DNA of 64,000 bases from the NCBI RefSeq assembly GCF_004210375.1, contig NC_134834.1:40142264-40206263 (forward strand). Reading direction: 5' to 3'. The notes under the pieces are model-generated. The model searched no databases. It saw only the letters and a program-made list of their open reading frames with translations, and had not been told where the DNA came from. The position numbers and the translations under genes were made by a program. This DNA comes from Tachypleus tridentatus. Its lineage: Eukaryota > Arthropoda > Merostomata > Xiphosura > Limulidae. Every line of letters starts with the position of its first letter. The first letter of the stretch is position 1. Below are positions 9,318 through 56,897 of the stretch, one piece after another.

Positions 9318-10664
<1,347 letters not shown>

Positions 10665-11445: not shown

Positions 11446-13929
11446 GTATGAAAACTTTAATGTTTGTCTCTTAATGTTCACTGATATATTCATAACCAAG
11501 ATGTGTATTTTCAAACATGTAAAACTAAAATGATTGAAAACTGTGGATGTTTTGCTGATAGTCCATCTCGATGGTTAGTGGTAGGTTTAGACTATCACTC
11601 ACTGTCCTCGGACGATTATAGGTATAGTAACAATCTTAAATTATAAAAAAAAAATTTTAAATAAAGACCTGTATAGAGTATAAGATACATAAAGGCAAAG
11701 CAGTTGGTCCAGACGACATACCCATTGAACTTTTATTAGCCCTAAAAGAAGTGGGAATCCAGGAAGTGACAAAACTACTGAACACTATTTATGATACGGG
11801 TGAAATACCGGAAGACTTTAAAAAATCAGTCTTTACTGCATTGCCGAAAAAGCCCGGAACAACTGACTGTGAACAGCACAGGATAATTAGTCTAATGAGT
11901 CATCTTACCAAGGTTCTTTTAAGAGTGCTCATGTCTAAAATGATGAATAAGATAAGACCAGAGATTTCTGATGCTCAGTTTGGATATATAGCCGATAAAG
12001 GCACTAGAAATGCAATTTTCGCTCTAAACATGCTCATGCAAAGATCACTGGAAGTACAAAAGGATTTATATCTATGTTTTATCGATTATTCTAAAGCCTT
12101 TGACAAAGTGAGATATGGTGACCTATTCGACATGTTGTCAGACCTGAACATCGATGCTAAAGATCTAAGAATCCTTAGAAACCTTTACTGACAGCAAATG
12201 GCAGCTATCAAAATTGAAAATGAATTGAGTGAATATAGACCAACTGAAAGAGGGGTGAGGCAGGGATGTGTATTTTCACCAGATCTTTTTTAACTTATAC
12301 AGTGAAATAATCCTACGAAACATCAATGAACATCAGGGAGTCAAAGTAGGCGGATGCAATATCAACAACTTGCGCTACGCTGATGACACAGTCCTCATTG
12401 CGGACTCCGAACGAAATCTACAGACTCTCCTCACAACAACAGTAGACGAGAGTGAAGAAAAAAGGCTTGCAGTTAAACGCAAAGAAAACAGAGTGCATGG
12501 TTATCTCAAAACAATCAATTACACCCACATGTAGCATAACCGGCAAGGACGTGAGAATAAAACAAGTCGAAAGCTTCAAATATCTTGGATATACTATAAC
12601 ATCAAATGCAAAGAGTGACACAGAAATAAAGAAAAGAATTGCAATGTCCAAGGATACTTTCAATAAAATGAAGTCCATATTCACAAACAGGAACATAACA
12701 AATGTCACTAAAATTAACACCTTGAAATCATATGTATGGTCTGTTTTCTTATATGGCTGTGAGAGCTGGACACTGAACAAAGATACAGAGAAGAGATTAG
12801 AAGCTGCTGAAATGTTGTTCCTTAGAAGGATGCTAAAAATATCATGGACTGAAAGAAAAACAAATGTAGAAGTCATGGAACTGGCAGGATACAAAAGGTC
12901 CCTCATGAAAACTATAAGAAAGAGACAAATGGAATTTCTAGGACACATCTGTAGGAAGAATGGGATAGAGAAACAGATGCTATGTGGAAAAATAGAAGGG
13001 AGGAAAAGCAGAGGGTGTCAAAGAACTAAATATATCGACAGCCTCAATAACTATGTCACCAAGAACTCAATGAGCAACATCGAGTTGATAAGGAGGATTG
13101 ACAACAGAGAAGTCTGGCATGCCATGGTCGTCGATGTCTGCCGCAGATTTGACACATGAAGAAGAATATAGAGTATAATGAAAACATCCAACCATCGTGC
13201 AGTAGATACAATTTCTAAGTTCTTAAACACGTGTAAGCGTAATGCAAATAAACATTTTAAATTAGTATTATATTACCTTCCTGTATAATACGATGAAATG
13301 TTTGCATGAGTATATTGAAGTTCATCGTTAGAGACATAACCAGAGAGACTGGATATCCTCAACGATTTTTAGATGATATCACTAAATTTATCCTTTTGAA
13401 GTGGTATCTTATGTATGTATATAATTATATGTTTGTAGCTTGCTGGGACAATTCATTTTTATTGTTTATATCTGGCTCATGGTGCTGAAAGTTTTGCCAA
13501 TTTTTCAGATAATTATGATTCATTTACTTTGTAGTTTCATTTTTATAAGTATGTGTAAGAACAATTTACATATAAATGTGTGATATATATATATATATAT
13601 ATATATAATACGCGTGTATATATATACGTTCAACAAAGCGAAATAAAAGTACGCAAACGTTTTAACAATTTGTTTCTAGAAAAAATAGGTGAACTAGCAC
13701 AGGAAATGTAAAAGTAGTATGCTTATCTTTGTGCATTTTATGCCTTGTGCTTATTGCTATGCAAAAGTACTAACTTAAACTGTTAAAATCATTCCTATAT
13801 TTTATTTATGATAAAATAATACAACAGTGAATGTGAGGCGTGAGAAAGGAATGATAAACGTCTCATTCATTCCCCAAACTTTACCAGATTTCTTTGAAAA
13901 TGTTTATACTTCTTTGTGCCTGTTTTCAG
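11446..13929 (+). other. Intron of the JHBP-like gene, expanded by a LINE
   Basis: A GT...AG intron of 2484 bases (GTATG at 11446, TTTTCAG at 13923-13929). 1483 bases of it are a LINE insertion (11684-13166) plus one copy of its 12-base target duplication, so the ancestral intron would have been about 1 kb. An AT dinucleotide tract lies at 13580-13607. Confidence 0.7.
11684..13166 (+). mobile_element. 5'-truncated non-LTR retrotransposon (LINE, RTE/L2-like)
   Basis: Perfect 12-bp target duplications TATAGAGTATAA at 11672-11683 and 13167-13178 enclose the insert. It begins within the reverse transcriptase: blocks GPDDIPIELL, YSKAFDKV, a G-RQGC-SP block at 12252-12282 and the catalytic YADD at 12375-12386. 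It continues through the C-terminal KYLGYTITSNAKSD, YGCESWTLNKD and FLRRMLKISWTERKTN blocks to a stop near 13159. The 3' end is a short GAAGAA tail, not poly(A). Several stops and frameshifts (for example near 12190, 12290 and 12450) show that it is dead. Class is by resemblance: the C-terminal CESW and LRRML blocks are shared by RTE/L2/CR1-related LINEs. Confidence 0.85.
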
Positions 13930-14418
13930 GTTAACATCAAAGGTCTCTCCAGCTTCAAAATCACAGATGTCAAGTCAAATCTGGTATCATTCAACACCAA
14001 GATAAGCTTCACCATACCGAAAGTTTTGGTAACTGGGACGTACTCTTTAGATGGTCTTATCATCAACATTTTCCCTCTATCTGGTAAAGGGAAATATCAG
14101 ATAGAAGGTGATGACATCACCTTTACGTTTTTTGGTCGATTGTTTTTCAGTTTGGATGACATTAAGCTATCGTCTTTGTTACTTGATCACCTTGAGTGGA
14201 AGAACGTTCGTGTGGTAGAACTTGCTGATTTTCTTGGTGGAGGTATATTTGCTGAAAAGATCGCAGAAGTACTACCAACTGTGGGAAAGGGAATGTTTGA
14301 GAGGTTTCAACCGAAACTAGCTGAACTAACCAATACTTTGTTGTTAAACGTTTTAAATCATGAATTGAGAAGACCTGAAGTTCGAGAAATCATAAAAGAC
14401 TTTATCCCAACCGTTTGA
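13930..14418 (+). CDS. JHBP/takeout-like secreted protein, exon 2 (C-terminal 162 aa)
   Basis: Continues in phase 0 from the exon ending at 11445. It opens with VNIKGLSSFKITDVKSNL, the family's '(V/I)-GLS-FK(V/I)' strand. Alternating beta-strand segments follow (KISFTIPKVLVTGTYSLDG, then LSGKGKYQIEGDDITFTF). It ends in the long C-terminal helix region (LLLNVLNHELRRPEVREIIK) and a stop at 14416-14418. The end resembles both takeout proteins and the mite Der p 7-like branch of the fold. The frame is open and codons look constrained, so the gene appears functional. Regulation is not visible. Confidence 0.8.
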   Translation, partial: VNIKGLSSFKITDVKSNLVSFNTKISFTIPKVLVTGTYSLDGLIINIFPLSGKGKYQIEGDDITFTFFGRLFFSLDDIKLSSLLLDHLEWKNVRVVELADFLGGGIFAEKIAEVLPTVGKGMFERFQPKLAELTNTLLLNVLNHELRRPEVREIIKDFIPTV

Positions 14419-16742: not shown

Positions 16743-17996
16743 ATGGATCGTTTTTTTAGTTTTTGAATTTCGCGCAAAGCTACACGAGAGTTATCTGCGC
16801 TAGCCGTCCGTAATTTACCAGTGTAAGACTAGAGGGAAGACAGCTAGTCATCACCGTCAACTCTTGAGCTACTCTTTTACCAACGAATAGGGGGATTGAC
16901 CATCACATTATAACACCCCCACGGCTGAAAGGGCGAGCATGTTTGGTGTGACAGGGATTCGAACCTGCGACCCTCGGATTACGAGTCGAGTGCCTTAACC
17001 ACATGGATACGCTGGGCCAGAATGGGTCGTACTGAAGAGTTCTGTGACTTTCAACGTGGCACTGTCATCGGATGCTACCTTTCCAACAAGTCAGTTCGTC
17101 AAATTTCTGACCTACTAGAGCTGTCCTGGTCAACTTTAAGTGTTGTTATTGTGAAGTAGAAGTGTTTAGAAGCAACAACAGCTCAGCCACGAAGTGGTAA
17201 GCCACACAAACTCACATAACGGAACCGCCGAGTGCTGAAGCGCGAAACGCGTAAAAATCGTCTGCTCACAGTTGCAACACTCACTACCAAGTTTCAAACT
17301 GCCTCTGGAAGCAAAGTTAGCACAAGAACTGTTCATTGGGAGCTTCATAAAATGGGCTTCCATGGCTAAGATCACCGTGCACAATGCCAAGCGTTGGCTG
17401 GAGTGGTATAAAGCATACTGACATTGGACTCTGGAGCAGTGGAAACGTGTTCTCTGGAGTGATGAATCAGGTGGATGTCAGGAGAACGCTACTTGCCTGA
17501 ATGCGTAGTGCCAACTGTACAGTTTTGTAGAGGAGTAGTAATGGTCTGGGGCTGTTTTTTCATGGTTTGGGCTAGACTCTTTAGTTTCAGTGAAGGGAAA
17601 TCTTAATGCTACAGCATACAATGACATTATAGAGAATTGTATGCTTCCAACTTTGTGGGAACAGTTTGGGGAAGGCCCTTTTTTGTTTCAGCATGACAAT
17701 GCCCCCGTGCACAAAGCGAGGTTCATAAAGACATGGTTTACCGAGGTTGGTGTGGAAGATCTTGACTGGCCTGAACAGAGCTCTGACTTCAACCCAAACG
17801 AACACCTTTGGGATGAATTGGAACGTTTACTGCGAGCCACGCCTTCTTGCCCGACATCAGTGCCCGACCTCACTAATGCTCTTGTAGCTGAATAGGAGCG
17901 AATCCCTGCAACCATGTTCTAAAATCTAGTGAAAAGCCTCCCCAGAACAGTGGAGGCTGTTATAGCAACAAACGGGGAACCAACTCCATATTAATG
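16743..17996 (+). pseudogene. Tc1-family transposase, SINE-disrupted
   Basis: Transposase relic. The start codon region is split by the SINE at 16752-17020; after it the frame reads GRTEEFCDFQRGTVIGCYLSN, then RQISDLLELSWSTLS and QPRSGKPHKLT (helix-turn-helix and hinge). The catalytic domain is visible as WSDES-like sequence at ~17457, VVMVWGCFF near 17540, FQHDNAPVHKARFIK near 17685 (second Asp) and DFNPNEHLWDELER near 17790 (Glu). A piece from about 17370 to 17500 is worn, and multiple stops and shifts are present. The blocks resemble a vertebrate Tc1 subfamily different from the 9.3-kb copy. Confidence 0.8.
16752..17020 (-). mobile_element. tRNA-derived SINE (family 1) inserted into Tc1
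   Basis: Target duplication AATGGATCGT (16742-16751) / AATGGGTCGT (17021-17030). Left side is the tail (TTTGAATTTCGCGCAAAGC); right side is the tRNA-like head in reverse: GGGATTCGAACCTGCGACCC (B box), ACGAGTCGAGTGCCTTAACC (A-box side). It must be younger than its Tc1 host. Confidence 0.9.
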
Positions 17997-19358: not shown

Positions 19359-19569
19359 AATATATATGCAAAAACGGCTCGTTTGGGTTGAGAAAATATT
19401 TTACATAGAAGAGCGAACAACGTTTCGACCTTCTTCGGTTATCGTCAGGTTCACGAAGAAGGTCGAAACGTTGTTCGCTCTTCTATGTAAAATATTTTCT
19501 CAACCCAAACGAGCCGTTTTTGCATATATATTTCTCTACAAGTGGGTTTTCTCGACATCACTGATTATT
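19359..19569. mobile_element. Palindromic Penelope-like terminal element (211 bp)
   Basis: Two inverted arms (GCAAAAACGGCTCGTTTGGG ... CCCAAACGAGCCGTTTTTGC) meet at the middle, so the insert is a near-perfect hairpin. A 12-base target duplication with one mismatch flanks it: AGTTCAATTCCT (19347-19358) / AGTTCATTTCCT (19570-19581). The left arm carries the 42-nt hammerhead-like core (minus strand 19413-19454). The same unit recurs at 28.1, 40.4, 43.7-44.5 and 55.1 kb. ORFs across it are palindrome artefacts. Confidence 0.75.
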
Positions 19570-21981: not shown

Positions 21982-23254
21982 TCAGGTCATCCTATAAGTA
22001 ATGTCCGAAAATTGAATACAAAAAGTGCATCATTTTTTTCTGTCTTTGTAGAAGGCTTTAGGGTTAAAATATGTAGTAGGACGTGTATAAAAATGTTCAA
22101 ATAAAATAAACTCACCCAACTCCACTTTTTCAGATCATTAATCAAATAAACCCTTATGAAGATGGATGTGTCTGAGGAGCACGTTAGATATACAATGTTT
22201 TATGGGTTTTAAAAAAGTAATAATGCAGCAGAAACTACATGAAACATTTAAGGTGTTTATGGTGCGGAGTCTCTCAAGGAAATAAAATATCGAAGGTGTT
22301 TTCAAAAGTTCAGATCAGGTGACTACAGCTTAAGTGAAGCGCCACGTTCAGGTCGCCCTTCTGAGTTCAATGATGACTTGCTGCTGGTTGCACTTGATGA
22401 AAATTATACTGTAACAGTTGAAGAACTAGCACAGAAGCTTAATCCAACCCATTCAACAGTTCACTGTCATCTGCAACAACTTGGAAATATGTCAAACTTG
22501 GAAAATGGATCCCCATGATTTGGCAGAAGCAAACCTTAGAGCAAGAGTAAACATTTGTACTTTTCTGCACTCTCGTGAACGTAACTCACCTTTTTGGACA
22601 GGTTAGTGACTGGATATGAAAAATGGATATATTATAAAAATGTTAAGCGCCATAGACAATGACTCAGTGCAGTTAAACTGACTAAAGCACAGCCCACAAT
22701 GAACCTCCACCCTAGGAAAGTTTTGTTATGCATGTGGTGGGATATTGTTGGTGTGATCCATTTGAGTTGCTGCCACTCAACGTAGCGATTACATCACACT
22801 TCTATTGTCAGCAACTAGAACACTTGAATGTTACACTGAAAGAAAAAAGGCCTGCTTTGATCAATCGTAAAGGTGTTGTGTTACACCAGGATAATGCACG
22901 GCCCCATACAGCAAGAATCACTTCTGCAAAGATTGAAGAACTAGACTGGAAAAACTTCCACATCCTCCTTATTCTCCAGACCTTGCCCCATTTGATTATC
23001 ATCTACTCCGAAGTTTGCAGAACTATCTTGATGGAAAAGAGCTTGAAACGTGAAGATGTCAAAACTACCATCTCTAAATTCTTTTCCTCCAAACCCCAAG
23101 AATTTTATAGAAGTGGCATTCAGAAGCTTGTGAATCGTTGGCAGGAAATAATATTAATGAAACATACATTATTGATTGAATTACATTAAAAGCGTTTGAA
23201 ATCTTTTCTCTTTTTCTGAATCTAAATTCGGACATTACTTAAGGTACGACCTGA
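21982..23254 (+). mobile_element. mariner element, terminal repeats intact (1273 bp)
   Basis: TA flanks at 21980-21981 and 23255-23256. Inverted ends: TCAGGTCATCCTATAAGTAA on the left and, reverse-complemented, TCAGGTCGTACCTTAAGTAA on the right, both continuing TGTCCGAA. The size is standard for mariner. It is nested inside repeat A. Confidence 0.85.
22156..23188 (+). pseudogene. mariner-type transposase, broken
   Basis: The N-terminus from the ATG at 22156 reads MKMDVSEEHVRYTMFYGF then a stop. Later blocks are clear: CFQKFRSGDYSLSEAPRSGR (HTH and hinge), TVEELAQKLNPTHSTVHCHL (second HTH), a WWDIVGVIHFELLPLN block near 22735, the second catalytic Asp in LHQDNARPHTARIT near 22880, and SKPQEFYRSGIQKLVNRWQE near 23090. 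Stops and frameshifts around 22200, 22490-22700 and 22960-23000 kill it. The family is mariner (DD34D) by these blocks; the third Asp (normally '-SPDLAPCD-') lies in the shifted segment at about 22975. Confidence 0.8.
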
Positions 23255-27969: not shown

Positions 27970-28142
27970 CCATTTACTGTACAAAAACACCGCTGCTACG
28001 AGTTGGTGGGGCCAGGGATTTTTTAACCTACGACGTTACTAAGACAAAGATCTAACTCAGTGGTGTCAAGAAAACCCACTTGTAGAGAAAAATATTTGTA
28101 AAAACGGCTCGTTTGTGTTGAGAAAATATTTTACGTAGAGGA

Positions 28143-36889: not shown

Positions 36890-38030
36890 TCGTCTTTTTA
36901 TTCTGCACAGTCTCTTAGGTGGACAATTTCATCATATTGTCTTTTTATTCTGCACAGTCTCTTAGGTGGACAATTTCATCATATTGTCTTTTTATTCTGC
37001 ACAGTCTCTTAGGTGGACAATTTCATCATATTGTCTTTTTATTCTGCACAGTCTCTTAGGTGGACAATTTCATCATATTGTCTTTTTATTCTGCACAGTC
37101 TCTTAGGTGGACAATTTCATCATATTGTCTTTTTATTCTGCACAGTCTCTTAGGTGGACAATTTCATCATATTGTCTTTTTTATTCTGCACAGTCTCTTA
37201 GGTGGACAATTTCATCATATTGTCTTTTTATTCTGCACAGTCTCTTAGGTGGACAATTTCATCATATTGTCTTTTTTATTCTGCACAGTCTCTTAGGTGG
37301 ACAATTTCATCATATTGTCTTTTTTATTCTGCACAGTCTCTTAGGTGGACAATTTCATCATATTGTCTTTTTATTCTGCACAGTCTCTTAGGTGGACAAT
37401 TTCATCATATTGTCTTTTTATTCTGCACAGTCTCTTAGGTGGACAATTTCATCATATTGTCTTTTTATTCTGCACAGTCTCTTAGGTGGACAATTTCATC
37501 ATATTGTCTTTTTATTCTGCACAGTCTCTTAGGTGGACAATTTCATCATATTGTCTTTTTATTCTGCACAGTCTCTTAGGTGGACAATTTCATCATATTG
37601 TCTTTTTATTCTGCACAGTCTCTTAGGTGGACAATTTCATCATATTGTCTTTTTATTCTGCACAGTCTCTTAGGTGGACAATTTCATCATATTGTCTTTT
37701 TATTCTGCACAGTCTCTTAGGTGGACAATTTCATCATATTGTCTTTTATTCTGCACAGTCTCTTAGGTGGACAATTTCATCATATTGTCTTTTTTATTCT
37801 GCACAGTCTCTTAGGTGGACAATTTCATCATATTGTCTTTTTTATTCTGCACAGTCTCTTAGGTGGACAATTTCATCATATTGTCTTTTTTATTCTGCAC
37901 AGTCTCTTAGGTGGACAATTTCATCATATTGTCTTTTTATTCTGCACAGTCTCTTAGGTGGACAATTTCATCATATTATCTTTTTATTCTGCACAGTCTC
38001 TTAGGTGGACAATTATGGTTGTCACCAACT
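36890..38030. repeat. 47-bp minisatellite, about 24 copies
   Basis: The unit contains TTATTCTGCACAGTCTCTTA then GGTGGACAATTTCATCATAT. GTGGACAAT occurs from 36919 to 38005, giving 23 intervals averaging 47.2 bases. Copies are almost identical; variation is mainly in the T-run length (46-48 bp units) plus a G-to-A change in the penultimate unit (ATTATC). The near-identity implies recent amplification or homogenisation. Long ORFs through it on the + strand are repeat artefacts that begin at GTG/TTG. Confidence 0.95.
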
Positions 38031-38794
38031 TTTTTAACAGTTGCCTTCATTTCTTCTTGTATTTTTAATCCTAATATGAAAATCACTTTGCACGTGGACT
38101 AGTAAAAAAACCAAAAACACTTGATATATTTTCGTACAAATAGTTTTTAATTTATTAGAATACTTCACTAAAAATTATGACTTTTTTGTATGTGAAAGAA
38201 TTTAATGTTTACTGAACGTCTGCCGAATTTTCTGAACATATACATACTATATTAAAAGTCAGTAATATCCAAAACTACAAAGACCCTAAACGATTATAAA
38301 AACGCCACGTGGTCGGTCAAATTGAACAAGCCCGTGCTGAGAGTTTTTGGTTAATTAATGATATGATACAGTGTTTGTAAAAATTTGTTGTAGCTATCCG
38401 AGTTTGCCTAACTTTGCCAGTTACAGTAAACATTCTTTCAGTAAATTGAAATTAATGAAATCGTATTTCCTAACAACAACTAGTCAAGACCGTTTTAATT
38501 TCTTGGTTGTTTTGTCAATTGAGAGAGAGGAAGTAAAAACCTGCAATCTCAAAAACCTCATAGAAAAGCGTGCCAATGATAGTGCAAGAAAATCTAAAAT
38601 TCTGTAAGCACATTTTATTTTTCATTGTTATTAATACATCTGCTTCCACATTTTTGTTTCAAAACTTGGTAGGCGATTAGTGAAATTGAGTTTTCAAATT
38701 CATCATGCATGGTTATACTTTTTATTTTCAATTTCCCTTTCTCTCATACATATATAATTTCATGTACAGTTGTGTTAGGGGGGCACCATTAATT
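38031..38794. other. AT-rich DNA, nothing recognised
   Basis: A 78-codon ORF at 38371-38607 has no recognisable domain or splice context. Confidence 0.4.
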
Positions 38795-39215
38795 ACACAG
38801 GTCAACAAATTTTTTCGAAATCTCAGTTGCATAAGATTTTTTTACTTATTCTTACCCTTTGTGACCTGCTAAATTCAAATATGAAAACGGTTCAGCTCTA
38901 CATGCTCTAGTTTTAATGCAATTTTAAGTTTTTCATTCTAGCCGTTTGTGGTCAAATTAACACGTTTCCTGCGATGCCTATATTGGCAAACCGGCAACTG
39001 CTGCGATGCTCTTGTACATCTGTCAGCTTCAGTGCTGCATGAGCTATGATAACGTGAGGTTGTCGTTACACTTGTCTCTTGCCTGCAACTTAGTTAAAGG
39101 TAAGACAATAGTGGGACACCGGTGGGTCCCATCGCAGGAAACGTGTTAATTACTTACACGTTTATGTTATCAACAGAGATATTAAAATTGTTTAGATTTT
39201 GTTTCAGATCTGATC

Positions 39216-40975
39216 ATGGCTACAAGGAGACGTCAATGTGAGAACAAGCCGGACGCTTTCTGTTATATTTGTGGATGCTTCACGCTTATTCGTCAAAGGC
39301 GTAATATAACATCATTTCTGAGGCGTGCTTATAAAGCGTACTTTGGACTTGCTCTTGGTGACCAAGACAAGAAATGGGCCCCACATATTGTGTGTCATAA
39401 CTGCGAGGAAATGCTGCGTGACTGGACAAAGGGAAACGTAAGGGTTTACCTTTCGGAATTCCCATGACCTGGCGAGAACCGATGGACCACACAACTGACT
39501 GCTATTTTTGTCTGGTCAATACAAAGGGCATTGGCAAGAAAAACAGACACAAAATCTCATATCCTAGTATCCCCTCAGCAATCCGACCTACTCTGCACTC
39601 TGATGAGCTCCCAATCCCAGTTTTAAAGGATTTCTTCCATCTGAAGATGTGGGTAGTGACCAAGAGCAAGAGACTGCTGATGAAACTCAAGAAATACTTT
39701 CAGAATCTGGCGATCCTTCTTATGAGACCCCACAGTCATTAACTCCTCAACAGTTTAGCCAGCCAGAGTTGAATGACCTTGTGCGTGATTTGGGTCTCTC
39801 CAAAATGCAGCTGAAGTGTTAGCTTCCAGGATGCAAGAAAAGAATCAGCTGAGCCATACAACTAAAGTGTCATACTTCCGAAATCGGGAGCAGGCTTTTG
39901 TGCCATATTTTACAGAGGAGAATATGTTTGTTTATTGTCATAATATCTCAGGTCTTCTCCAGGAATTAGGGATGCCAGTATACCATCCAAATGACTGGCG
40001 ATTATTTCTAGATTGTTCTAAGCAAAGTTTGAAGTGCGTTCTACTTCATAATGACAATGTCTATGCAGCTGTTCCAATTGGACACTCTGTGTATTTACGA
40101 GAGGAATATAATGTCATTAAGACTGTGACTGACCTACTAAAATACCACGAGCACAACTGGACAATTTGTGTGGACCTCAAAATGGTTACTTTCCTCCTAG
40201 GTCAACAAAGAGGATTTACAAAGTACCCTGCTATCTTTGCATGTGGGACAGCCGAGCTCGAGAAAAGCACTGGAACCAGAAGGAGTGGCCCATACGTGAG
40301 ACTCTGAAGGCAGGTATGCCAAATATTGTCAACGATCCAATTGTCTGTCATTTGAGGAAAAGATCATATTTCCTCCTCTCCATATCATGCTGGGCTTGAT
40401 GAAACAGTTTGTGTAAAATATTTTCTCAACCCAAACGAGCCGTTTTTTGCATATAAAGTTTATGAAGGCGTTGAATACTGACGGTGAATGCTTCCAACAC
40501 ATATTTTCTGTGCTCCCTGGTTTGTCCTTCGAGAAGATCAAGACAGGTGTTTTGATGGACCACAGATTCGTGCACTTGTGCGTGATCAAGAATTTGCCAG
40601 AAAGATGAACGACAAGGAAAGGACTGCATGGCTTTCATTTGTGGCGGTGATGGCAAACTTTCTCGGTAAAAAAAAGCTGACAACTATGAAACCCTTGTAA
40701 CGAATATGTTGTCAGCTTTTCGCGACCTTGGATGTAACATGAGTGTCAAACTCCATTACCTGTACAGTCATCTTGATAGATTCCCTGAGAACCCAGGAGC
40801 TATAAGTGACGAGCAAGGCAAGCAGTTCCATCAGGACCTCAAGACCATGGAAGAGCGTTACCAAGGGAGATGGGACAAACATATGATGGCAGATTACTGC
40901 TGGAGCATTAAACGAGAATGCCCTGAGACAGTCCACAAACGCAAGAGCTACAAGCGGAAATTCATGCCTGAGTAG
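39216..40975 (+). pseudogene. Putative novel transposase or unnamed multi-copy zinc-finger protein
   Basis: From the ATG at 39216, MATRRRQCENKPDAFCYICG begins a treble-clef-like zinc-binding region (CYIC near residue 17, CHNC near residue 66, then a second pair DCYFC near 39495). Then come DWRLFLDCSKQSLKCVLLHN (near 39990), VPIGHSVYLREEYNVIKTVT, and ICVDLKMVTFLLGQQRGFTK (40165-40225), which could supply a catalytic Asp. CYLCMWDSRAREKHW (40230-40280) looks like the C-x2-C/H insertion of some DDE transposases. Next are LGLMKQFV, then FDGPQIRALVRDQEFARKMN (near 40555) and HYLYSHLDRFPENPGAISDE plus QGKQFHQDLKTMEERYQGRW (40755-40870) with a candidate acidic residue. At least five frameshifts and one insertion (40414-40456) break it. 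I recall very similar unnamed proteins in many arthropods and in Hydra; no function is known to me. The transposase role is inferred from the inverted repeats. Confidence 0.6.
40414..40456 (+). mobile_element. Penelope-like terminal fragment inserted in the zinc-finger gene
   Basis: 43 bases (TAAAATATTTTCTCAACCCA, then AACGAGCCGTTTTTTGCAT) identical to the outer end of the palindromic elements, lacking the hammerhead core. It sits between imperfect 8-base duplications AGTTTGTG (40406-40413) / AGTTTATG (40457-40464), and removing it restores the QFVKALN frame. An ultra-short 5'-truncated insertion. Confidence 0.7.
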
Positions 40976-41328
40976 ACTGCAATTGAGCTTTCCCTCCTCA
41001 TAGTAGCAAATGTCTTATCTACTAATCAGTTTTATATAAATAAATTGAATTAATATAAATAACTTGAATACATTTATACTATCTTGCATTTTCTTTTTTA
41101 TTGCCCAGCTATATTAAAGAGTTTTATAACATATTTTATCACATATTTTTCATGATAGACTACGACGTCAATGTGATGATGACGAAATTTTGAGATTTTC
41201 AAATACCTTGATTGCAAAAAAAGTAGAGCACTGAGGAAAAAACTAACTTCAGATCTGAAATCAGGGCAAGAAATTATGTAATACCAATTGTTTGATATAA
41301 ATGCAACAAAAATTTTGTTGACCAGTGT

Positions 41329-41573
41329 TATTGCACCCGGGGACCCTGTACTCTAGGACCGGAACTGTATTTAACCAGTAAGTTTAGTTTAACGTACAGT
41401 CAAAAAGTTAAAACTAGGAAAAATGAAAACGCATTTGACTAGGAAAGCTAGTTGAAACTTTTCGAACACCGTGAGAGTGACCCTTGTTATTCCTTTTTCA
41501 ATCTAGAGGTGACTTCGCAAATGGATGAAGGAGCCTTCGCCCTTATTTGTTTGCTATTGGACTGGTTTGATTT
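41329..41573. other. Unassigned DNA between elements
   Basis: Nothing recognised. Confidence 0.3.
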
Positions 41574-41988: not shown

Positions 41989-42252
41989 GCCAAGTGGGTT
42001 AAGGCATTCGAATCGTAATCCGAGGGTCGCGGGTTCCAATCCCTGTCGCACCAAACATGCTCGCCCTTTCAGCCGTGGAGGCGTTATAATGTACGGTCAA
42101 TCCCACTATTCGTTGGTAAAAGAGTAGCCCAAGAGTTGGCGGTGGGTGGTGATGACTAGCTGCCTTTCCTCTAGTCTTACACTGCTAAATTAGGGACGGC
42201 TAGCGCAGATAGCCCTCGAGTAACTTTGCGCGAAATTTCAAAACAAACAAAC
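41989..42252 (+). mobile_element. tRNA-derived SINE (family 1), near full length
   Basis: Imperfect target duplication TTTCTCCCT (41980-41988) / ATTCTCCCT (42253-42261). The first ~10 bases of the head are missing (begins GCCAAGTGGGTTAAGGC). B box GGGTTCCAATCCC; tail CAAAACAAACAAAC. Confidence 0.9.
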
Positions 42253-42261
42253 ATTCTCCCT

Positions 42262-43731: not shown

Positions 43732-43831
43732 TATAGACCATTATAATCAGTGATGTCGAGAAACCCACTTGTTGAAAAATATATATGCAAAAACGGCTCG
43801 TTTGGGTTGAGAAAATATTTTACATAGAAGA

Positions 43832-44421: not shown

Positions 44422-44479
44422 TCTATTATGTAAAATATTTTCTCAACCCAAACGAGTCGTTTTTGCATATAGACCATTA

Positions 44480-46303: not shown

Positions 46304-47211
46304 CGAGGTTTGTTCAAAAAATACGCGGACTGATGTCATAAAACAAAATGTACTTTATTTAGAAGTTACAGGTCTGGGACCCCTTCAAAGTACTCTCCTC
46401 CCCAACGCACACACTTATCCCAACGGTGTTTCCACTTGTTGAAACAGTCCTGGTACGCTTCTTTTGTAATGTCCTCCAGCTCCTTCGTCGCATTTGCCTT
46501 AATCTCGGAAATCGTCTCAAATCTTCTTCCTTTCAAGGGTCTTTTGAGTTTGGGGAACAAGGAAAAATCGCAAGGAGCAAGGTCAGGTGAGTAGGGGGGA
46601 TGAGGAAGAACAGTGATCGAGTGTTTGGCCAAAAACTCACGAGTTCTGAGAGCTGAATTTCGCAGCAACGCGGTGCATCTTCAATTTTTCGGTCAAAATC
46701 TCGTAACAAGATCCAACTGATATCCCACACTCTTCAGCAAGCTCCCTGACAGTCAGACGTCGATTTGCCCGCACCAAGGTGTTGATTTTGTCGACGTGTG
46801 GGTCGTTAGTTGACGTGGAAAGATGTCCAGGACGCTCATCATCTTCAATGGACTGTCGACCATCCTTAAAACGTTCATGCCACTTTAAACATGCCGTACG
46901 ATTCATAGCAACATCACCATAAGCCGTGTTAAGCATAGCAAAAGTTTCAGTCGCAGATTTTCCACGTTTAACACAAAATTTCACAGCAAGTCGTTGCTCC
47001 TTCAGGTCATTCATTCTGAAATCCGCCAAACGAAAAAAATCGCACTTCACTTAAAACCGCGTAGCTAATACAGAAATGAAGATATCTGCAATCGGGAAAT
47101 GGTGTCGTAATTAGCTGATCTGTGCGAACCTAGCAACACCAAGCGGATTCCCCTGGAACCAACTGGAGCCGCGCAATTCAAACAGTCCGCGTATTTTTTG
47201 AACAGCCCTCG
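46304..47211 (-). mobile_element. mariner element with internal deletion (908 bp)
   Basis: TA flanks at 46302-46303 and 47212-47213. Inverted ends CGAGGTTTGTTCAAAAAATA (left) and, reverse-complemented, CGAGGGCTGTTCAAAAAATA (right), both continuing CGCGGACTG. It is nested in the gypsy RT and transcribed right to left. The short length is due to a ~400-base internal deletion. Confidence 0.9.
46366..47017 (-). pseudogene. mariner transposase, centre deleted
   Basis: The N-terminal part from about 47017 (MNDLKEQRLAVKFCVKRGKS) has two helix-turn-helix units and the linker (SIEDDERPGHLSTSTND, then LTVRELAEECGISVGSCYEI). It breaks after HRVAAKF and resumes at about 46660 with TREFLAKHSITVLPHPPYSP and DLAPCDFSLFPKLKRPLKGR. 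The third catalytic Asp is in the LAPCDF block (DD34D). The segment with the first two Asp residues is deleted, so it cannot be active. The surviving parts are little decayed. Confidence 0.85.
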
Positions 47212-55143: not shown

Positions 55144-55330
55144 ATATATGCAAAAACGGCTCGTTTGGGTTGAGAAATTTATTTTACATAGAAGAGCGAA
55201 CAACGTTTCGACCTTCTTCGGTCATCGTCGAAACGTTGTTCGCTCTTCTATGTAAAATATTTTCTCAACCCAAACGAGCCGTTTTTGCATATATATCTCT
55301 CTACAAGTGGGTTTTCTCGACATCACTGAT
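55144..55330. mobile_element. Palindromic Penelope-like terminal element (187 bp)
   Basis: Perfect 13-base target duplication TGTTTGTCTTTAT (55131-55143 and 55331-55343). The unoccupied paralogous site is visible at 57725-57740 (CTGTTTGTCTTTGTGACAAC), so the insertion is unambiguous. The two arms meet directly (GGTCATCGTCGAAACGTTGT), and the CTGA half of the hammerhead core has been lost. Confidence 0.85.
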
Positions 55331-55760: not shown

Positions 55761-56897
55761 CTCTTCAAAAAAAAGAAACGCAAAAGGGATATTCTTGTTA
55801 TTTTAAAGAGAAATATATGTAATAACGTTAAAAGCTCAGAGTATGTGATGTTACACGTGTTAAGGCACTGATTGCCAGACCAAAATGACAATAAAAGTTG
55901 TGCACTTTGAAAACGAAGGAAAACATTGGATTTTTCGCCAAAACGCATTCGTGTCCAATACATTTGTTTGAGAGATCTGAATGTTCTGCAAGTGCAACAT
56001 GTGCAAAGTCCCTACAAAAGTGACGGGTTCTCGGTTTTCATAGCTCAGTGTTAAGCCACCGACACGCAATACAGTTACGCCAAGACTGACTGAAGCACAA
56101 CGCAACAACGCCATTGCTCGCTTTGAAGCAGGCGAATCTCGATCAGATGTTGCCAGAGCTGTGAATGTTCACCTAAGCACCATCACAAGGCTATGGAACC
56201 GTCACCAACAGCATGGATCAACTTGTGACCGTCCACGATCTGGCAAACCTCGTGTGACCACGCCCGCACAAGATCGTTACATCCGGTTACGTCACCTTCG
56301 GTATAGGACCACCACTGCGACGTCTACTACCTCAACCATACCAGGGCTGCGTAGGATTCTCGATCAGACCGTACGCAACCGTCGACGAGATTCTTAGGCC
56401 CCATGTGCAACCCATCATGGTGAACGTCAACGACGTTTTTCAACATGACAACACCCGTCCTCACACAGCCCAACTCACCACTGTCTTCTTCAGACACCAC
56501 AACATCAACGTTCTTCCCTGGCCCTCCAGATCACCAGTTTTTGGGACGAGTTGGACCGACGTCTGCGACGGCGACAACCTCAACCGCAAACTCTACCTCA
56601 GCTTGCAGCAGCTTTGCAGGCTGAGTGGACATCCATTCCATAGGATGTGATTCGTCATCTCATCGCTTCCATGGGCAGGAGATGCCAAGCAGTTATTGAT
56701 GCTCACGGGGGGCATACTCGTTATTGACGTTGAGTGACGTTAAACGTCAACTAGTGAGCATGGACTTCGCCTTTGCAGACTTTGGATGTTCAGCAGTGAA
56801 TGTGCAAAGTTTCACACATGTCATACAGAACTACCCGGAATAAACTTGTTAACAATATGTCTCAAATTTTGCCTTTTGCGTTTCTTTTTTTGAAGAG
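55761..56897 (+). mobile_element. Tc1-like transposon with internal deletion (1137 bp)
   Basis: TA flanks at 55759-55760 and 56898-56899. Inverted ends CTCTTCAAAAAAAAGAAACG and, reverse-complemented, CTCTTCAAAAAAAGAAACGC, both followed by CAAAA-like sequence. Much more GC-rich than its surroundings, which suggests recent entry relative to the base composition of the region. Confidence 0.85.
56085..56730 (+). pseudogene. Tc1-family transposase with deleted catalytic centre
   Basis: The forward frame gives EAQRNNAIARFEAGESRSDV, then ARAVNVHLSTITRLWNRHQQ and DRPRSGKPRVTTPAQDRYIR (both HTH units and hinge) to about 56395, where a deletion removes the first catalytic Asp region. It resumes at about 56436 with a block reading FQHDNTRPHTAQ (second Asp), NVLPWPSRSP, and a shifted FWDELDRRLRRR (Glu neighbourhood) near 56540-56570. 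It ends in a CQAVIDAHGGHTRY-like tail near 56725. A third Tc1 subfamily, distinct from those at 9.3 and 16.6 kb. Confidence 0.75.

Follow-up and report, generated by a model that had tools for sequence, protein, structure and literature searches.

The window analysed here is a 64,000-nt stretch of the Tachypleus tridentatus genome (assembly GCF_004210375.1, contig NC_134834.1, positions 40,142,264 to 40,206,263 of the forward strand). It contains a 2,532-bp element (38796..41327, + strand), very probably of the Chapaev3 type, that is delimited by inverted ends, genome copies, target-site duplications and flank comparison. The element starts with CAC at 38796 and ends with GTG at 41327. Its left terminal inverted repeat (38796..38815, + strand), located by inverted-repeat search, motif count and comparison of copies, begins CACAGGTCAACAAA; the right one (41308..41327, – strand) begins CACTGGTCAACAAA on the – strand. 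The inverted-repeat search of the window paired the arms 38791-38815 and 41308-41332 (25 nt, 88% complementary). Without mismatches, the end motif CACWGGTCAACAAA is found only at the two element ends in the whole window, while with up to two mismatches there are 5 matches versus 1.36 expected (0 of 100 shuffles reach 5). A text search for the letters of the terminal repeat gave 1,405 papers; judging from their titles, the 20 listed chiefly concern barcoding and related topics. Sequence and copy comparison identify the TTA on either side (38793..38795 and 41328..41330, no strand) as the target-site duplication. A first-pass annotation of the window had proposed inverted ends with limits at 38795 and 41328. 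The ends are real, but both of these limiting bases belong to the TTA that touches the element.

Genomic copies and mobility

We looked for copies by a DNA search of the 2.17-Gb host genome, in which 40 of 2,052 first-look candidates were scored. At least 44 matches were found, of which 34 are near full length (identity 99–100% in 28 and 94–95% in 6), and 30 of the near-full-length loci were fetched for comparison. CAC and GTG termini are present in all 30 copies. Ungapped mean pairwise identity inside the ends is 0.88 for the first 100 bases and 0.98 for the last 100 bases; outside, the single bases adjoining the five-base target give 0.34 and 0.40, and positions beyond them 0.27–0.29. Homology ends sharply at both termini, a check that the first-pass annotation had proposed, and the flanks beyond CAC/GTG are unrelated. 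An identical 3-bp duplication is present in 25 of the 30 copies (TAA in 16, TTA in 9), always in the context A-TWA-T; over all 30 copies the A is found in 29 and the T in 30. The five copies lacking a matching duplication (L004, L009, L018, L023 and L024) also have A+T-rich junctions, with, by eye, a longer A+T repeat and 1–2 extra bases beside one end. The target duplication, which the annotation had called unclear while asking for a constant length, is thus 3 bp, TWA, with these five exceptions.

An empty site is available for one copy, L013. Its flanks, joined with one duplication, align gap-free at the junction, with 111 identical positions out of 153, to an element-free related repeat that lies beside L022. 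Together, the duplications and this one divergent empty site establish the element as a product of insertion. In agreement with the earlier claim of a mobile element bounded by terminal inverted repeats, the element is mobile and recently multiplied, with many near-identical dispersed copies.

Transposase gene and its lesions

The transposase coding region (39216..40975, + strand) is broken in the window copy, with pieces in three frames, and is continuous apart from its lesions. The first-pass annotation had described a single 1.76-kb gene; the motifs it quoted do lie within this interval, but the changes of frame went unmentioned. An N-terminal zinc domain, Chapa-type by position and with a predicted ZAD-like fold, occupies 39216..39630 (+ strand; approximate coordinates, frame shifts inside) and contains conserved cysteine pairs C16/C19, C60/C63 and C96/C99 (numbering here and below is that of P0001, a database relative with an unbroken frame). 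Further along the + strand are two presumed catalytic aspartates, D267 (40011..40013) and D321 (40173..40175, within VDLKM), a C(2)C motif (C340/C343, 40229..40240), an LH motif (L388/H389, 40378..40383), an H(4)H motif (H497/H502, 40754..40771) and a presumed catalytic glutamate, E516 (40811..40813, within DEQGKQFHQD). The catalytic (DDE), C(2)C, LH and H(4)H residues are conserved in 51 of 51 homologues, except H497, which is conserved in 50. Relatives are as widespread as the annotation had held: 969 proteins are related at E ≤ 0.001, most of the best 120 are 550–600 amino acids long, and unbroken reading frames occur among the database relatives. In prokaryote and viral collections 62 and 77 stretches fit a pattern, and none encoded a relative. 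Structural comparison of the full predicted model returned Transib and RAG1 as the closest folds; families missing from the match list are not thereby excluded. The core is predicted to have an RNase-H-type, RAG1/Transib-like fold, which, with the conserved acidic and C/H residues, supports the earlier proposal of an RNase-H-like DDE core with a C/H insertion.

Compared with the majority sequence, subfamily A (28 copies, including the window copy) carries 104 substitutions and 163 indel events. Single bases account for 157 of the 163 indels, and 136 are located in runs of 3–6 equal bases. This excess appears to reflect long-read assembly error; hence frameshifts private to single copies are not to be trusted, and this covers most of the frameshifts of the window copy. 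Two gene lesions around the LH region, 5 extra bases and an insertion of ∼50 bases (40414..40464, + strand), are common to all 28 subfamily A copies. Neither lesion is present in L029 and L030 (subfamily B), the latter having 500 open codons; among the 30 fetched loci, none carries the whole gene in a single frame. Because the two lesions are shared, subfamily A probably owes its burst to an intact-gene relative acting in trans: a defective lineage was likely multiplied by transposase made elsewhere in the genome. Such a source was not found among the fetched loci.

An unrelated inverted-repeat element in other parts of the window has ends that match the ∼50-nt insertion. This short element family has ∼40-nt inverted ends, one of which matches the insertion; it comprises two inverted pairs (19363-19528 and 55145-55293) and single ends (28101-28133, 43776-43822 and 44431-44471). 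We also considered the insertion as an intron: a GT...AG cut is possible by eye, but the upstream 5-nt lesion would still break the frame. Upstream of the gene, a nested segment (38955..39151, no strand) has perfect inverted ends of 22 nt, in which TTAA is followed by CACGTTTCCTGCGATG. It resembles an old miniature element of the TTAA-inserting kind and, since it is present in all 30 fetched copies, represents an old passenger.

Probable assignment to Chapaev3

Chapaev elements have CAC/GTG termini, and all Chapaev3 elements examined in the same study have TWA duplications between A and T, confirmed by empty sites, and transposases with C(2)C, LH and H(4)H motifs (PMC4079192). The silkworm family encodes a 556-amino-acid transposase, most Chapaev3 families have a single exon, and hosts include insects, Hydra and vertebrates, with families such as Merrow, Garfield and Conan (PMC4079192). 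The window element resembles this group in its CAC/GTG ends, in TWA flanked by A and T, in the motifs C(2)C, LH and H(4)H, in a protein of ∼556 amino acids and in its range of hosts. Because all the published marks that can be tested here were found (PMC4079192), we conclude that the element is very probably a cut-and-paste DNA transposon of the Chapaev3 group (Chapaev/CMC), present here as a young copy with a defective transposase gene. Membership in this already named, little-described group is well supported by the features of the element, which may form a family of its own within it.

EnSpm, Mirage, Chapaev and Transib have been placed in one clade (PMC12730594). CAC...GTG ends with short duplications could also come from another lineage of CMC, either EnSpm/CACTA or Mirage. 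In EnSpm, CAC..GTG termini go together with duplications of 3 bp and with the motifs C(2)C and H(3-4)H (PMC12730594). We regard such an origin as very unlikely, as the A-TWA-T duplication, LH, H(4)H and protein size fit Chapaev3 in detail. The 25 Pfam families listed for the homologues at E ≤ 1 include no transposase family, of EnSpm/CACTA or otherwise. The first-pass annotation suspected an undescribed superfamily, in line with the naming of listed relatives as 'uncharacterized' or 'hypothetical' protein and with the lack of any Pfam family at E 0.001 in five window pieces or in the list of 25 families for the 51 homologues. Absent names more likely mean absent models, and with the testable printed marks of Chapaev3 in place an undescribed superfamily is very improbable. 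The element very probably has a place in a named superfamily, an outcome that the annotation itself had set against its claim of novelty.

Duplications of 3 bp with a TWA preference are also made by PIF/Harbinger elements, and the multi-copy state would fit either such an element or a multi-copy host gene. Dispersed copies with unrelated flanks and sharp ends, the CAC/GTG termini and Transib and RAG1 as nearest folds make both extremely improbable. For this probable Chapaev3 element we propose that the transposase would bind the element ends, probably helped by its N-terminal zinc domain, that the DDE centre would cut the element out at CAC/GTG, and that the 3' ends would be joined, at a stagger of 3 bp, to A-TWA-T targets. 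For subfamily A, the window copy included, the transposase would probably come from the intact-gene relative. Chapaev3 is part of a V(D)J recombinase-related group (PMC4411706), yet is named in only 4 papers of the literature searched. The dozens of copies of this young family, together with unbroken database relatives, offer material for tests of RAG-like cutting and target choice.

To the left of the element lies a tandem array (36892-38014) with 23.8 copies of a 47-bp unit and 99% matches. Another repeat, dispersed, up to ∼290 bp long and roughly 70–95% alike between places, is found at 41989-42255, in at least 6 other places in the window and in the flanks of many fetched element copies. 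Broken transposase pieces, mostly of Tc1/mariner type, are located at 9382-10442, 17542-17892, 22716-23186, 46369-47050 (– strand) and 56044-56394; Pfam matched one piece each, the 22716 piece just under the cut-off, and the fuller ranges are from translations. There are also a reverse transcriptase fragment (11661-12188; RVT_1, E 3.2e–10) and a JHBP-domain gene piece (13858-14415; E 6.2e–15), which, going by the name of the domain, points to an arthropod host.

The zinc domain and comparison with related systems

The full-model structural comparison barely covered the N-terminal part, which was folded separately. Foldseek gave no match below E 0.001 for this part, the best (E 0.2) being the ZAD of M1BP. 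Pfam zf-AD matches 26 of the 51 homologues at E ≤ 1 (best E 0.0029, 18.2 bits versus a cut-off of 28); other weak matches are FYVE in 6 (best E 0.0015) and RAG1_imp_bd in 3 (best E 0.011). A sequence search of solved structures found a FYVE-domain protein as best match (E 0.36 and 0.34). For a few members FYVE is as good a sequence match as ZAD, and ZAD appears preferable only by comparison of predicted structures. The three CxxC pairs of the transposase N terminus are in the same order as in Chapa and RAG1, the RAG1_imp_bd match being weak (3 of 51). We tentatively suggest, as a possibility somewhat short of even, that Chapa of Chapaev3, the RAG1 N-terminal zinc region and the arthropod ZAD are one zinc fold, with a third cysteine pair added in the first two. 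Several ZADs have a pairing role. If the suggestion is true, it would provide a structural model for the undefined zinc region of RAG1, and the analogy with ZAD would suggest that this region pairs subunits of RAG1 or of the transposase. Such transposases may then have given rise to insect ZAD regulators, or have been fed by them.

The RAG1 zinc motif was called undefined in 2011 (PMC3124419), and the N-terminal zinc motifs C1–C3 of RAG1 and RAG1L have been described in passages that give no fold (PMC7204232). The term 'zinc' was absent from PMC11844651 on a term search. A literature search for ZAD with RAG1, Chapaev or Transib gave no joint mention among the matches listed; most matches were unlisted, and absence is not thereby shown. 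By hhalign, Chapaev3 matched one typed RAG1 sequence with E 0.026 (probability 1.9%). Against 22 of 68 database RAG1s the N-terminal part reached E 0.058 with a score of 16.6, which is not above shuffles (40 shuffles reach 19.66, at least 5 exceeding 17), and the core reached E 0.23 with a score of 18.0, equal to the shuffle mean. As neither of the latter two scores rises above column shuffles, sequence homology between RAG1 and Chapaev3 is not shown here.

The predicted fold of the N-terminal zinc domain resembles the ZAD (zf-AD) of arthropod transcription factors, from which it differs in a sequence match below the Pfam cut-off and in having one more cysteine pair, the third, behind its ZAD-like portion. 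Four-base duplications occur in the non-Chapaev3 part of Chapaev. Chapaev as a whole makes duplications of 3–4 bp (PMC4079192), versus 3 bp here. Chapaev3 has been grouped with Chapaev, Transib and TransibSU, all related to V(D)J recombinase; like the RAG1 N terminus, it has been described as containing a complex zinc finger, the Chapa domain (PMC4411706). Other Chapaev subgroups belong to the same broad group and share the CAC/GTG ends (PMC4079192). The Chapa zinc domain is described for them too, with a RING finger after it in two subgroups (PMC4411706). A RAG1-like fold is predicted to be common to Transib and the window element, and this shared fold does not indicate Transib/RAGL membership. 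Transib/RAGL elements make 5-bp duplications (PMC4411706), versus 3 bp in the window element; Transib is without the RAG1 N-terminal region (PMC8355894); and, as a difference from RAGL/RAG1, no second gene is seen within the 2.5-kb window element.
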